From: Halostagnicola kamekurae
Lineage (GTDB): Archaea > Halobacteriota > Halobacteria > Halobacteriales > Natrialbaceae
Length of the DNA: 64,000 nucleotides
Assembly (NCBI RefSeq): GCF_900116205.1
Contig: NZ_FOZS01000002.1
Location: forward strand, 558,001 to 622,000
Reading direction: 5' to 3'
Shown piece by piece: positions 23,491 through 52,753 of the stretch. The notes under the pieces were generated by a model, which saw nothing but the letters and a program-made list of their open reading frames with translations, made no database searches and was not told the origin of the DNA. The position numbers and the translations under genes were made by a program. Numbering within the stretch: the first letter of the stretch is position 1; the number at the start of each line of letters is the position of its first letter.

Positions 23491-23549
23491 GTCAACTTCG
23501 ATCGCTTCGCTCTCTCGTTGTCTACTTCATATCTACTCTATACTATCTT

Positions 23550-23602
23550 CAGGGATTCCATCTCACGCCTCGCTACGCTCGGCGTTCAATATTGAATCCC
23601 TG
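23550..23602. repeat. 9-bp inverted repeat beside att-like copy B
   Basis: CAGGGATTC at 23550-23558 and GAATCCCTG at 23594-23602 are separated by 35 bases. A perfect 12-base palindrome (TTCAATATTGAA, 23585-23596) overlaps the right arm. It abuts copy B directly, as core-flanking arms or remnants of element ends might. Confidence 0.45.
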
Positions 23603-23628
23603 AAAAGTAGCGGGAGGTAGATTTGAAC
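23602..23628 (-). repeat. Stray copy B of the initiator tRNA-Met 3' end (att-like)
   Basis: Bases 23608-23628 repeat the last 21 bases of the tRNA gene. Counting the shared flank, copies A and B are identical over 27 bases (23461-23487 and 23602-23628). The T-stem partner is not preserved (CTC instead of CTAC follows), so only the integrase-type core was duplicated. Confidence 0.75.
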
Positions 23629-23700
23629 CTCAAGGAGACGGTCATCCTCGCTTCGCTCGGACGCTGCGACTCCTCTGGCTCAAACTACTCATGCAATGGA

Positions 23701-23726: not shown

Positions 23727-23731
23727 AAACA

Positions 23732-23806
23732 TAGCGGGAGGTAGATTTGAACTACCGGTCTGCGGGTTATGAGCCCGCCGGAATCTCCTGGCTATCCCAT
23801 CCCGCT
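23732..23806 (-). tRNA. Initiator tRNA-Met (CAT)
   Basis: 75 nt, CCA not encoded. The acceptor stem AGCGGG pairs with CCCGCT and discriminator A. The anticodon loop CTCATAA is closed by the three G-C pairs (GGG/CCC) that mark initiators. The first acceptor pair is A-U, as in archaeal initiators. T arm GGTAG-TTCAAAT-CTACC. No intron. A possible TATA (CTTAACTAG on this strand) sits about 25 bases upstream. Confidence 0.93.
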
Positions 23807-23871
23807 ATCACATCATATCCGGGTCGGCTAGTTAAGGGTTGTGATTCGGTTACCGTCTGTGGGTTTTTCGC

Positions 23872-46977: not shown

Positions 46978-49146
46978 CTACTCCTCGGCGATCCGACTCC
47001 CGCCGGGGGGCATGAAGTGTTGGATCTTGTCCGGACTGGCGATCTTTCGGACGAACGATTCGTCCTCGAACCGCTCTCGGAGCCGCCGGTAGAGCCGCTT
47101 TGCCGCGTCGGCTTGCGCGTACCTGCCGGGTTCGATATCGATGGTCGTCACCGCCCGCTGTTCGATTGCTGCGGGCGGGCCGCCGATGACGCGGGTGTAC
47201 GGTTCACACTGGATCCCGACCGTGACGCCAACGGGCGTGCTCTCGTGATAGGTCCGGTCGCCCCGGACGGCGAAGCCACCCTTCTCGAGGTACTCGCCGC
47301 TCTCGGGGGTCTTGGTCACCTGATCGAAGTCGACGACGTAAACGTCGCCAGCGTAGCGACCGTCCTTCCAGACCGACGAATAGGAGACCGCGAACTGCGC
47401 GGCTTCTTCGATGCTCGAGTCGGGGATCTCGATGTCGCCCGAGGAGGCCTCGCTCGGATCGGTCGCCTTGAGTACCGTGACGGGGCCGCCGTGGGCTTGC
47501 GTGTGCAACACCTTGTCGCCGCGCTCTATGTACTTCTTGACCAGTTCCTCGTTCTGATCGGCGTTGCGCCCGCCGATGACGAGGAAGTCGTCGCTCGTGT
47601 GGAACCACCGGAACCGATCGAACCACGGCTCGTTCTCACGGATCGGAATCGACGGCTCCGCGAGCCAGTCGCGGTCCTTCCCCTCGTCGTCCTCGTCGCT
47701 GTCCTCGTCGCCGTCGTCGGCCTCCCACTCGTCGCGCCGCCGTTTCGCGTCCGCCAGGTCCTCGCGGGTGTCTTCGATGGCGGCGAGCGCTCCTTCTTTC
47801 TTCTCCGCGATCTCTTTGGCCTCCGTGTAGAGTCGATCGGCGTTCTGCTCGAGGCCGTCTCGAGCCACCAGGTCGATCCGTTCGCCGTCGATATCGACGG
47901 TGATCGTCCCCTCGCTGCCGTCGACGTCGACGACCGCTTCGGCGGCGTCGATGCCGCGTTCTTTCCCCTCTTCGAATCGCTCCTCGATCTCCTCCCACGG
48001 ACGGTCTTGCTCTCTTTGCGTCTGCACCGTCGAGAGGATGTCGTCGACGAGGTCGTAGTTTGCGTACAGCAACTCCGCGCGCTCGCGCTGGGCCTCGGCC
48101 TGCTGTTCGAACCCCTCGATGGCCCCCTCCTGCTGTTCGATGATCCGCTCGTGCTTTGCGATCTCCTCCTCGAAGTCCGGCCGCTGGGTGGTCGGGTCCG
48201 GCTCTTCGTCGTCAAGTTCGAGTCGGAAGAAGTAGTCGTCCAGCGCCGTCAGAAAGCTGTCGTAGGACTCGCCGGCGAGGGCCGCGTGCTCCTCGAGCGC
48301 GAATGGGGTGACGTCGACGACGCCGTTTGCGGACTGGTCGCCCGCCCCGTTGTCGCCCTCGTCTTCGGTGGCGTCGCCTCCCCCCGCGCTCTCTTCGGCG
48401 TCGAGGTACACTCGCGGATCGAAGTTCCCGTTCCGGACGTCGAGCGCGAGCCGCTCGATGGCCTCGTAAATCGCGTCGTACTCGTCGTCGGTCGCGTCGT
48501 CGATATCGAGTGCCTTCTCGACGCCCGCGCGGGTACAGATTTCCTCGGCGTAGAGGCCGCCGAAGTTCAACTGCGTCGCGAGCGTCCGGACGACGTCCGT
48601 GTCTGAGTCTTCCATCTCGAGGTCGAACGCCTCCCGGGAGACCGTAAGCGGGTTCGTCCGCGAGTCGGGGAACTCGTAGCGCGAGCCGGGGACGACGGTC
48701 CGGGACTTGAGACGGACCGTCTCGAGGCAGTCGATCACCTCGTACTCGCCGTCGGTCACCGCGATATTGCCCTGGCCGAACAGTTCGACGATGATCCGCG
48801 TCGTGCCGTCATCGCGCTCGAAGACGAACTCGAGAATGCGGTCGAACTCGAACTGTTCGACGCCCGCGAAGTCGGCACCGGAGAGCCGGTTTCGGAGCAT
48901 CATCGCGAACTGCGGCGGTCGTCCGGGGGCGTCCGGAACCCGCGTCGGATCGACCGTGTGGGCGCGCTTCGTCTCTCCGACCTCGCAGACGAGTTCCACG
49001 CGACCGCGGTCGAAATCCCGCATCTTCAGTCGGAGGAGGTCGTCGCCGTAGAGATAGGCCTTGTCGACTTTCGCACCCTCGTAGGCGCCCAGTTCGCGCA
49101 CGAGAGCGGCGAGGTCGACGCTGGTGAGTTCCCGCTTCGGATCCAT
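46978..49146 (-). CDS. rqcH: Ribosome quality-control protein RqcH (NEMF/Tae2/FbpA family)
   Basis: 722 aa. NFACT-N domain from MDPKRELTSVDLAALVREL through PPQFAMMLRNRLSG (the conserved Asn/Arg-rich tRNA-binding region). A helix-hairpin-helix middle follows, then a long coiled coil (about 300-440) and the NFACT-R domain with WFDRFRWFHTSDDFLVIGG. It binds stalled 50S subunits and adds C-terminal Ala tails in bacteria and archaea. The stop is just 12 bases into the 46.98 kb region; ATG 49146. Confidence 0.94.
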   Translation of the reverse strand: MDPKRELTSVDLAALVRELGAYEGAKVDKAYLYGDDLLRLKMRDFDRGRVELVCEVGETKRAHTVDPTRVPDAPGRPPQFAMMLRNRLSGADFAGVEQFEFDRILEFVFERDDGTTRIIVELFGQGNIAVTDGEYEVIDCLETVRLKSRTVVPGSRYEFPDSRTNPLTVSREAFDLEMEDSDTDVVRTLATQLNFGGLYAEEICTRAGVEKALDIDDATDDEYDAIYEAIERLALDVRNGNFDPRVYLDAEESAGGGDATEDEGDNGAGDQSANGVVDVTPFALEEHAALAGESYDSFLTALDDYFFRLELDDEEPDPTTQRPDFEEEIAKHERIIEQQEGAIEGFEQQAEAQRERAELLYANYDLVDDILSTVQTQREQDRPWEEIEERFEEGKERGIDAAEAVVDVDGSEGTITVDIDGERIDLVARDGLEQNADRLYTEAKEIAEKKEGALAAIEDTREDLADAKRRRDEWEADDGDEDSDEDDEGKDRDWLAEPSIPIRENEPWFDRFRWFHTSDDFLVIGGRNADQNEELVKKYIERGDKVLHTQAHGGPVTVLKATDPSEASSGDIEIPDSSIEEAAQFAVSYSSVWKDGRYAGDVYVVDFDQVTKTPESGEYLEKGGFAVRGDRTYHESTPVGVTVGIQCEPYTRVIGGPPAAIEQRAVTTIDIEPGRYAQADAAKRLYRRLRERFEDESFVRKIASPDKIQHFMPPGGSRIAEE

Positions 49147-50098: not shown

Positions 50099-50761
50099 AT
50101 GACGGGAAATCGAGACGGCTGGTCGGACATCTACCGACTCCCGCAGTTTTTCGACCGGATCGACGACCAGCAGGCGGTTTCGGTCCGAGAGGCGATCGAC
50201 GAACTCGAGGTCGACCTCGGGATGGATATCGACGGCGTCGTCTATCACGACCGGGGGATTCGGGTCCCCGGCTACGATGCGACTTTCATCCGCGAACCGG
50301 ACACAGAGCGGGACGATCCCGCCTTCAGCGTCCAACTCGACGCGGTCGGTCCCCGGAGCACCTGGGCCGTCTTCGACGCGTCGAAGGAGTGGGACGCCTA
50401 CCTCCTCACCGCGGACGACGTCGCGGCCATCGCGTGGGTGAGCGACGAGGAGTTCGCCTTCGAGGAGTCCAAAAACTTCTCCTCGAAGGACACGGCGGTC
50501 GGCGCCGGTCGATTCTCTTTCGGCATCTTCTTCTACGAGTCACTCGAGTGGGACTCGTTCGCCAGCGACCTCGAGGAGACCGACTCGCCGGCGCTGTTAC
50601 ATCACGACGATGGCTCGACGTACTACCCACAGACCCAGTCGGAGTTCTACCGATACGTCGACTCATCACCGGAGGAATTTCGCGAGAGTGGCGGCGGCGC
50701 ACCGTCCTACCTCGGCGTGCTCGAACTCGAGGTAACGATCGACGACGAGCGACGTCAGTGA
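50099..50761 (+). CDS. Conserved haloarchaeal protein of unknown function
   Basis: 220 aa, acidic, soluble. Aromatic-rich features: GWSDIYRLPQFFDRID, DRGIRVPGYDATFI, KEWDAYLLTADDVAAIAWV, AGRFSFGIFFYESLEWDSF and a terminal YLGVLELEV. No motif of a known enzyme. The ATG at 50099 is preferred over upstream frames, which lack acidic haloarchaeal composition. It faces the candidate RNA at 50785-50942. Confidence 0.65.
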   Translation: MTGNRDGWSDIYRLPQFFDRIDDQQAVSVREAIDELEVDLGMDIDGVVYHDRGIRVPGYDATFIREPDTERDDPAFSVQLDAVGPRSTWAVFDASKEWDAYLLTADDVAAIAWVSDEEFAFEESKNFSSKDTAVGAGRFSFGIFFYESLEWDSFASDLEETDSPALLHHDDGSTYYPQTQSEFYRYVDSSPEEFRESGGGAPSYLGVLELEVTIDDERRQ

Positions 50762-50784
50762 CGACGCTTCGCGTATGGACGGGA

Positions 50785-50942
50785 AAACGGTCGGTTCACT
50801 CGGGTCAGGGGGAGACCCGAGCGAGTCGGTGAACACTTCTCAGGCGGGACACGGGGCGTGTCCCACCCAGACCGTGAACGGGATGTGCGATCACATTGTC
50901 GTTGTGGGGGGATGACAATGCTTCCCGACGATCGTCGGCAGT
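50785..50942 (-). ncRNA. Candidate structured RNA of four hairpins
   Basis: On the minus strand, in order of transcription: a CCGAC-GATC-GTCGG hairpin (50925-50938); CATTGTC/GACAATG with a 13-base loop (50894-50920); GGGACACG/CGTGTCCC with a 3-base loop (50846-50864); and a two-part stem made of CTCGGGTC/GACCCGAG inside GTTCAC/GTGAAC (50794-50834). A TTTATAA box at 50963-50969 fits a start near 50940. Beyond the last hairpin the RNA strand reads GTTTTCC (about 50783-50789), a possible T-tract terminator. No ORF explains it. Confidence 0.55.
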
Positions 50943-50962
50943 TGCTAATACTCCACCACCGG

Positions 50963-50969
50963 TTATAAA
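50963..50969 (-). promoter_or_regulatory. TATA box of the candidate RNA
   Basis: TTTATAA on the minus strand, about 26 bases before the predicted transcript start. It sits inside the AT-rich stretch AAAATTTATAACC, which stands out from GC-rich flanks. Confidence 0.5.
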
Positions 50970-51091
50970 TTTTATGCCAATCGGTGTGCGAATTTCGTCC
51001 GGAAGTCGCGGTTCTCGACGATGTTTGACGGACTACAACCGTCGACGAATCGAGTGAAGTCAAAAACGAGCGGGCGGGCCGTCGTCGCGGG

Positions 51092-52753
51092 TTAGAGCCG
51101 TTTGCTCACGTACGGCCCGTCCTGATGGTAGCCGAGCTTGTTCCGGTAGTACTCTCGAGCGCCGATCCCGGAGATGACGCTCACTTTGTCGTAGCCGGCG
51201 TCCGCGGCCAGCGATTCGGCCCGGTTCATCAGCTTGCGGCCGTAGCCCCGATGTTGGTGCTGGTCCGTCTCGCCGTCCTCGCCCATCGTTACCTCCGAGC
51301 CGTAGACGTGCAGTTCCCGGACCAGCGCCGCGTTCTTGAGTTCGTCCCGCACGGGTTCGTTCGGGAATCGAAGCCGGCAGAAGCCGATCAGCAGGTCCTG
51401 ATCGAAGTCCTCGAAGCTGATGAAGTGTTCGGTCCCGCCGCTCGCTTCGTAAGTCATCACGTCGAGTTCGACGCGGTCGGGTTCCGCCTCGTTCATCCCG
51501 GCCTCGCGACAGCGGATACAGTCACACTCCCAGCCGTGTTCGTCCATGCGCTTGCGTGCGAGCTGTCTGAGATTCGACTTCCAGACGCCGGCGTCGATGT
51601 AGTCCGCCGGAATGTCGCGCTGGACCCGCTGGAGTCGCGTATATCGCGGGATCATGTCCTTGATTTCGGCGACGAGTTCCGCGGCTTCCTCGTTGTCTAA
51701 GGGGTCGTACTCGCCTTTGTGCCACCAGTCGTAAGTCGCCGTCCCGCGGACGATCAGCGTCGGATAGATCTTCAGGTAATCCGGCTTCCACTGCTCCTGT
51801 TCGAAGATGCGCCGGAAGTCCTCGAGACACATCTCCCTGCTCATGCCCGGCTGACCCGGCATCATGTGGAAACCGACCTTGAAGGCCGCGTCTCGCAGGC
51901 GCTGGTTCGCCTCGATCGACGCCTGAACGCCGTGGCCGCGGTGCATCTCGCGGTTGATCCGCTCGTAGGTCGTCTGGACGCCGACCTCGACTTTCGTGCC
52001 GCCGAGGTCCAACATTCGGTCGATCTGCTCGGGATCGCACCAGTCGGGTTTCGTCTCGAAGGTCGTCCCGATGTTCCGGACGTCGCCCGTCTCGTTCTCC
52101 GCGATGACGTCCTCGAGATACTTCCACTCGTACTCCTCGGGATCTTCTGCAAAGCTCACGCCCTGGGCGGGTTCGGGTTCTTTGTCCACGTCGTAGTCGT
52201 TCATCGCCTCGAGCGCTCGCTTGACGAACCACTCTTGGTAGTCGTGACTTCGGGCAGTCATCGTCCCGCCCATGAGGATCAGTTCGACCTTGTCGATCGG
52301 ATGACCGATCTCGCGTAACTGCTCGAGTCGGAGGGTCACCTGCCCGTAGGGGTCGTAGTCGTTTTGCACGCCGCGAGCGGCTGCCGGCTCTTCACCCGTG
52401 TAGCTCTGGGAACTCGAGAACTCCGAGTCCGGGCCGCCGGGACAGTATAGACACTTCCCGTGCGGGCACCGCTCGGGCGAGGTCATGATCGCCACCGGCG
52501 AGACGCCGGAGGCGGTTCGAACCGGTTTGCGCTGGAGGACGGATTCTAAATCCTCGCGGTACTCCTGGGGGGCGTAATCCAGCAGTTCGGAGTTTTTGGG
52601 CACTTTCGGTGCCGAGTGCTCCGAGCAGGCCTCGAGTTTGGCCTTCTCGACCTCATCGCGCTCGACCTCGCCGTTGATGATCCGCTCGACGAGCGTTTCA
52701 CAGACCCGCTCGAACGCTTCGGTTTCGGTCGGGTCGGGCGTGTCGGTACTCAC
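51092..52753 (-). CDS. elp3: tRNA uridine(34) 5-carboxymethylaminomethyl modification enzyme Elp3
   Basis: 553 aa. The radical SAM domain carries CPHGKCLYCPGG, a C-x4-C-x2-C cluster motif typical of Elp3, and the C-terminal GNAT acetyltransferase domain has QHRGYGRKLMNRAE and YDKVSVISGIGAREYYRN. Acts on wobble uridine of tRNA. The archaeal enzyme functions without the rest of the Elongator complex. GTG start at 52753; no ATG is nearer. Confidence 0.95.
   Translation of the reverse strand: MSTDTPDPTETEAFERVCETLVERIINGEVERDEVEKAKLEACSEHSAPKVPKNSELLDYAPQEYREDLESVLQRKPVRTASGVSPVAIMTSPERCPHGKCLYCPGGPDSEFSSSQSYTGEEPAAARGVQNDYDPYGQVTLRLEQLREIGHPIDKVELILMGGTMTARSHDYQEWFVKRALEAMNDYDVDKEPEPAQGVSFAEDPEEYEWKYLEDVIAENETGDVRNIGTTFETKPDWCDPEQIDRMLDLGGTKVEVGVQTTYERINREMHRGHGVQASIEANQRLRDAAFKVGFHMMPGQPGMSREMCLEDFRRIFEQEQWKPDYLKIYPTLIVRGTATYDWWHKGEYDPLDNEEAAELVAEIKDMIPRYTRLQRVQRDIPADYIDAGVWKSNLRQLARKRMDEHGWECDCIRCREAGMNEAEPDRVELDVMTYEASGGTEHFISFEDFDQDLLIGFCRLRFPNEPVRDELKNAALVRELHVYGSEVTMGEDGETDQHQHRGYGRKLMNRAESLAADAGYDKVSVISGIGAREYYRNKLGYHQDGPYVSKRL

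Follow-up and report, generated by a model that had tools for sequence, protein, structure and literature searches.

A putative structured RNA gene with C-rich loops and its own archaeal promoter in the Natrialbaceae

The window analyzed here, a 64-kb stretch of the Halostagnicola kamekurae genome, very probably carries a real gene that stands by itself and encodes a structured non-coding RNA of ~150 nt, a putative transcript of the minus strand with its own BRE/TATA promoter. We propose that this RNA would act in trans as a regulator: rigid GC-rich stems would keep at least two C-rich, G-poor loops (UCCCC type) exposed, which may base-pair with G-rich sequences in target mRNAs, altering their translation or stability. 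For this explanation as a whole, gene and trans-acting pairing together, we consider the balance to be even; the loop-pairing mechanism by itself is put forward tentatively, at slightly less than even confidence.

Table 1. Features of the putative RNA gene and its neighbors (window coordinates).
Feature	Position	Strand	Basis or remark
elp3 (radical SAM + GNAT)	51092..52753	minus	Pfam matches ELP3_N, Radical_SAM, Radical_SAM_C, GNAT; upstream same-strand neighbor of the RNA
BRE/TATA promoter element CATAAAATTTATA	50964..50976	minus	sequence and conservation over 58 homologues
Predicted RNA body	50790..50946	minus	both ends inferred
Hairpin P1, CCGAC-GATC-GTCGG	50925..50938	minus	GCCGAC-NNNN-GTCGGC in most relatives
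Hairpin P2, CATTGTC/GACAATG, C-rich loop AUCCCCCCACAAC	50894..50920	minus	loop 50901-50913
P2-P3 linker, here UGAUCGCACAUCCCGUUCAC...	50868..50893	minus	CACACCG-like in relatives (alignments A2, A5)
Hairpin P3, GGTGGGACACG-CCC-CGTGTCCCGCC	50843..50867	minus	fold and sequence
Hairpin P4, CTCGCTCGGGTC/GACCCGAGTGAAC, apical loop UCCCCCU (50807-50813)	50794..50825	minus	fold, covariation and sequence
Short T-tract TTTT, possible 3′ end or terminator	50784..50787	minus	sequence only
Convergent neighbor, unnamed protein	50101..50761	plus	no Pfam match; a protein similar by eye flanks displaced genus-g3 copies of the RNA

Read on the minus strand, the locus begins with a gap of ~115 bases between the end of elp3 and the CATAAAATTTATA promoter, in which TTTATA (50969-50964) is directly preceded by CATAAAA. 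The TATA box, four stems and T-tract that a preceding sequence-only reading had described are all found where it placed them. In P2, CATTGTC (50920-50914) pairs with GACAATG (50900-50894) to give 7 bp around a 13-nt loop; the core of P3, GGGACACG-CCC-CGTGTCCC at 50864-50846, can be extended to 11 bp (50867-50843); and in P4, CTCGGGTC (50821-50814) pairs with GACCCGAG (50806-50799), with the stem continuing outward. We infer an RNA start near 50943-50946 from the TATA spacing and a 3′ end from the last hairpin and the T-tract. The next gene in the window is convergent, which rules out a leader of a downstream gene; rqcH lies at 46978-49146. The claim that the stretch holds no ORF fails if taken literally, because a mechanical 102-aa TTG frame (50755-51063, minus strand) and the 3′ part of a 147-aa GTG frame (plus strand) overlap it, although the rest of that observation stands. 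Across the 58 homologues described below there is no conserved open reading frame: 56 of the RNA bodies lack any ATG-to-stop frame longer than 1 aa, and the other two have frames of 18 and 30 aa.

The same 58 homologues define the promoter. Taking the first T of TTTATA as position 0, the BRE/TATA bases from -4 to -1 and from 0 to +4 carry 1.2-2.0 bits each, and no spacer base from +6 to +17 exceeds 0.33 bits. In 53 homologues position +20 is an A, and P1 starts at +30, at a fixed spacing from the TATA box. A conserved BRE/TATA, an unconserved spacer and a hairpin at +30 is the arrangement expected where an RNA starts behind an archaeal promoter, the exact position of that start being an estimate. 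The idea that the RNA has its own TATA box is strengthened accordingly, in that the promoter is conserved apart from the RNA body.

A DNA search of 61 genomes returned one congener with an 80% match of nearly full length and four others with fragments. Among 30 family loci, 16 contain a recurring unit downstream of elp3 (a regular expression found 14, and L010 and L030 were recognized by eye), consisting of a TATA box, 30 nt, a GCCGAC/GTCGGC hairpin and a C-loop hairpin. A covariance model of the first part of the RNA, built from 15 sequences (R1), matches 58 of 125 Natrialbaceae genomes at E <= 0.1 and, in a sample of 392 genomes from the order, 44; two weak matches among these 44 are outside the family (L098 in G192 and L097 in G249), lie in stretches that look coding and lack the TATA part, and we judged them false. 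A second model, R2, built from 58 homologues, matches 59 of the 125 family genomes at E <= 0.05. Two of these matches were dropped as false, one lacking the later parts of the RNA (L095 in G098) and the other lying in a coding frame (L241 in G034). The covariance search that had been suggested as a check therefore finds the RNA in 57 of 125 Natrialbaceae genomes, with 58 copies in 10 of 29 genera; the genera inferred to carry it include Natrinema, Haloterrigena, Natronococcus, Natronorubrum, Natronolimnohabitans, Natronoglomus, Natronobiforma and Natronosalvus.

In a class sample of 391 genomes, R2 matched 45 family genomes and gave 14 weak matches outside the family, the best with an E value of 0.0013. 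Eleven of the 14 were inspected (G270, G059 and G385 were left out), and only those in G232 and G430 resemble RNA genes. Of nine read in addition to those inspected earlier, seven (L233, L234, L235, L238, L239, L240 and L242) are coding-like or lack a promoter or a C-loop hairpin, and L236 and L237 resemble a second structured RNA, described below. With R1 and R2, over the order and class samples and the 11 inspected weak R2 matches out of 14, no family other than Natrialbaceae gave a full match that was convincing, and the RNA family appears to be confined to Natrialbaceae. At E <= 0.05, R2 finds nothing in 66 of the 125 family genomes, two of the five from the window’s own genus among them (G001 and G004), which makes the RNA dispensable. 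One of these two, G004 (L008/L099), keeps the TATA box and ~14 further bases downstream of elp3, with other DNA in place of the RNA body; this apparent loss suggests that the gene can be lost. Viral contigs gave 0 hits to one exact pattern, a pattern unlike the window’s own copy, and a plasmid search returned one record, Haloterrigena turkmenica pHTUR01.

The second structured RNA (L243-L253; L237:1913-2075) occurs in other Halobacteriales families: a TTTAT-type box is followed after ~30 nt by GCCGAC, an inner hairpin with a CUUUUCUC loop and GTCGGCAC, and then by GC-rich hairpins. Of 372 order genomes, 11 contain its pattern, none of them from Natrialbaceae. It resembles the Natrialbaceae RNA in the TTTAT-type box ~30 nt before a GCCGAC...GTCGGCAC hairpin, followed in several cases by a CCGCACACCG-like stretch, but differs in that its P1 contains the inner CUUUUCUC-loop hairpin and that it lacks the C-rich P2 loop. 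R2 scores 13.3-24.5 bits in 11 of the 12 loci searched; since the loci were picked by their P1 sequence, a kinship of the two RNAs is no more than possible.

Covariation was counted in alignment A5, made from sequence alone, with four helices named under the guidance of single-member and alignment folds. It covers 39 of the 58 homologues and leaves out the window’s genus (the window itself, L009 and L010), the near-duplicates L016 and L022, the remote L091, L092 and L096, and eleven with another P2, P3 or P4 layout (L011, L074, L077, L078, L080, L081, L082, L083, L085, L086 and L090), so that the window’s own sequence is absent from this count and its genus enters only a separate 15-sequence count. 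The four helices comprise 1141 cells, 96.2% of them paired versus a shuffled mean of 93.6%. Compensatory changes in homologous regions, on which the sequence-only reading had staked its proposal, are present: double-sided changes occur in 13 of 30 pairs versus 6.4 expected from shuffling, the double-changed cells number 40 versus 12.4, and the covariation score is 0.201 versus 0.147, values that 0 of 500 shuffles reach in each case, although sequences related by descent can exceed such shuffles. For further pair types, 1 of 500 shuffles reached the observed value. When helix partners were slid out of register, the paired cells fell from 96.2% to 22.8-50.0%, and these controls together with the number of double-changed pairs argue for a real structural constraint on the predicted RNA.

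The helices contribute unequally. P1 is paired in 98.7% of its cells and has no double changes, so that its support comes from conservation more than from covariation, and in P2 half of the pairs are invariant and double changes affect one of eight; in the 15-sequence count, columns 53-81 of alignment A2, within P2, read GC in 12 sequences and AU in the 3 of the window’s genus. Double changes affect 8 of 10 pairs of P3, which is an outer stem in the relatives, and 4 of 6 pairs of P4. In the window’s genus P3 and P4 are two hairpins side by side, whereas in most relatives P3 encloses P4. In the Natronococcus-type copies the P2 region folds differently and the CUCCCC stretch is retained: in five displaced copies of genus g3 (L074, L077, L080, L081 and L085), the GATCAC of the P2 5′ arm can pair, by eye, with a GTGATC beyond P3, with CUCCCC kept.

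Among the 39 relatives, C makes up 60% of the P2 loop and 57% of the P4 loop, compared with 36% of the stems, and G makes up 5%, 15% and 38%, respectively; CCC is present in 37 P2 loops and 35 P4 loops, and 53 of all 58 RNA bodies have at least two runs of four or more C (the median number of such G runs is 0). Apical loops this rich in C and poor in G suggest pairing with G-rich mRNA sites or binding of a protein. We looked for target sites in 862 kb of the 4.1 Mb of the window’s genome, with 696 predicted genes whose starts were crudely chosen. Ahead of these starts, GGGGA, the complement of UCCCC, is not enriched (4 occurrences in the -15 bin), GGAGG and GGTGA peak with 27 and 19 in that bin, and predicted loop–mRNA duplexes in the 862 kb are no better in start regions than in mid-gene. 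A general block of Shine-Dalgarno sites is therefore unsupported (GGGGA 4 versus GGAGG 27, with no duplex excess). The loops may instead pair with specific targets or with sites inside coding regions, or may have a protein partner; sites inside coding regions have been reported for Haloferax s479 (PMC8155600).

The alternative to pairing that survives best, though we think it rather unlikely, is that the repeated C-rich, G-poor loops bind a putative C-specific protein, which the RNA would titrate or scaffold with no mRNA pairing at all. Several similar short motifs on separate loops, a conserved loop core between variable flanks, and the absence of an excess of pairing sites at gene starts all agree with such a role, but pairing, or the avoidance of misfolding, would lead one to expect C-rich loops just as much.

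By far the commonest neighbor is elp3, and the RNA could accordingly be a cis element of that gene, as a structured 3′ UTR, a terminator or a processed 3′-end RNA: 49 of the 58 copies follow elp3 on its own strand at a distance of 48-828 nt. The description of the RNA as lying next to elp3 is correct for this commonest setting (within 1 kb) and does not extend to all copies. Two more are on the same strand at 1.6 kb (G071, where a TnpB-like gene adjoins the RNA) and 3.7 kb (G136), and six copies from one genus (g3, Natronococcus-type) are away from elp3, on the opposite strand, on another contig or 87 kb off. A second copy in H. turkmenica (G031:C2; L087/L254) lies on pHTUR01 (NC_013744.1, about 287480-287631; record lineage Natrialbaceae), in a megaplasmid stretch without elp3; it is flanked by a gene for a hypothetical protein and one of the aldolase family, and the RNA itself bears no annotated feature. 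The six displaced copies and the plasmid copy argue that the RNA has a gene of its own rather than being an elp3 UTR, and rule out the 3′ UTR as the main reading; with the conserved BRE/TATA at fixed spacing, and the distances and TnpB-like gene in G071 and G136, they leave the cis element very improbable.

Five of the six g3 copies (L074, L077, L080, L081 and L085) adjoin a homologue, by eye, of the window’s convergent protein, and in L077 and L080 this homologue is followed by an rqcH-like start, matching the place of rqcH in the window; beside the sixth, L083, a different frame is displayed. Since the convergent-gene homologue is kept, it seems that a rearrangement in g3 parted the RNA from elp3 only, with the other neighbor retained. 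Three loci from genomes of genus g26 that lack the RNA (L018, L020 and L033) have another inverted-repeat-rich element with a TATA-like box after elp3, reading AGAACGGAAGCCAC...GTGGCTTCC and then AAACCC...GGGTTT.

As elp3 is a tRNA modification gene, we also considered, with PMC2584109 in mind, an H/ACA or C/D guide for rRNA or tRNA modification, an idea to which we now give hardly any weight. An ACA does follow P2 within 7 nt in 30 of 39 relatives, but it is missing in the other 9, the kink-turn signature (UGA..GA) appears in 1 of 39 P2 loops, and C and D boxes occur together in 0 of 58 homologues; the boxes and kink-turn of a guide were thus not found. Rfam 15 at the gathering score assigned no family to the RNA locus or to seven related loci, its sole hit in the window being a tRNA elsewhere, and the only two matches up to an E value of 10 were non-guide and at chance level.

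The minus strand of the locus (159 nt) folds at -67.6 kcal/mol versus a shuffle mean of -49.3 (z -4.68), with 0 of 200 dinucleotide shuffles as good, and the plus strand reaches z -1.42, with 17 of 200 as good. Five homologues fold at z -3.07 to -5.44. Among 142 sampled folds (70 random 160-nt places in the window and the RNA locus, each on both strands) the RNA locus ranks second. Chance inverted repeats in GC-rich intergenic DNA are a reading that can be set aside: such DNA does fold readily, and one of the 70 sampled places gives a better fold, but the homologues in 57 genomes and their compensatory changes argue strongly against it. The strongest of the random places, 23497-23656 on the minus strand (z -5.16; plus strand -4.46), lies near a tRNA-Met gene (23731-23807).

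By the databases searched, the RNA family is new. We found no published description of it in a literature search that did not extend to subscription journals and supplementary tables, so the RNA may figure in a published RNA-seq list. Three features expected of a haloarchaeal intergenic sRNA gene are present, namely a separately conserved promoter, a covarying structure and no conserved open reading frame. The proposal of a new haloarchaeal small RNA thus gains support from the covariation, the separately conserved promoter and the copies away from elp3, as far as genome comparison can carry it. To our knowledge, archaea have few conserved, structured families of non-coding RNA beyond the housekeeping RNAs. 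Functional work on haloarchaeal sRNAs, as far as we located it, is in Haloferax. Because the family described here offers an alignment, a covariance model, a promoter and named hosts that include complete genomes, the role of archaeal trans-acting RNAs can be tested through a single 150-base gene.

In layout, the RNA resembles the UCCC-loop sRNAs, Listeria LhrC and the Staphylococcus Rsa RNAs. The report on LhrC1-5 (PMC4132741) describes binding to a G-rich site ahead of a start codon through UCCC motifs located in two hairpin loops and a linker, and it is these G-poor loops with redundant C-rich motifs that the Natrialbaceae RNA shares. LhrC is bacterial, however, with a proven target and pairing site, whereas the Natrialbaceae RNA is archaeal and known from sequence; the latter also has GC-rich stems, longer C runs (CCCC-CCCCCC) and complementary sites that are not enriched at gene starts. 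Redundant C-rich motifs in exposed loops are thus present, and complementarity to G-rich ribosome-binding sites was not found over the 696 predicted genes (individual targets being possible), so we do not file the RNA as an LhrC/Rsa-type member. A bolder picture, which we consider improbable, is a haloarchaeal hub sRNA whose interchangeable C-rich loops on rigid stems would control many mRNAs as LhrC does, in a wider clan with the CUUUUCUC-loop RNA as a distant sister and a common TATA-30-GCCGAC/GUCGGC 5′ module.

Closer in phylogeny are the 22 haloarchaeal intergenic RNAs that PMC7002113 describes as conserved across species and without function, among which the Natrialbaceae RNA may itself figure, and the Haloferax volcanii regulators s479 (PMC8155600) and sRNA132 (PMC6560208). 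Like the predicted Natrialbaceae RNA, s479 and sRNA132 are independent intergenic RNA genes. As far as the available part of its report goes, s479 has one short pairing region near its 3′ end (GCCGAAGCG) rather than a multi-hairpin structure with C-rich loops.
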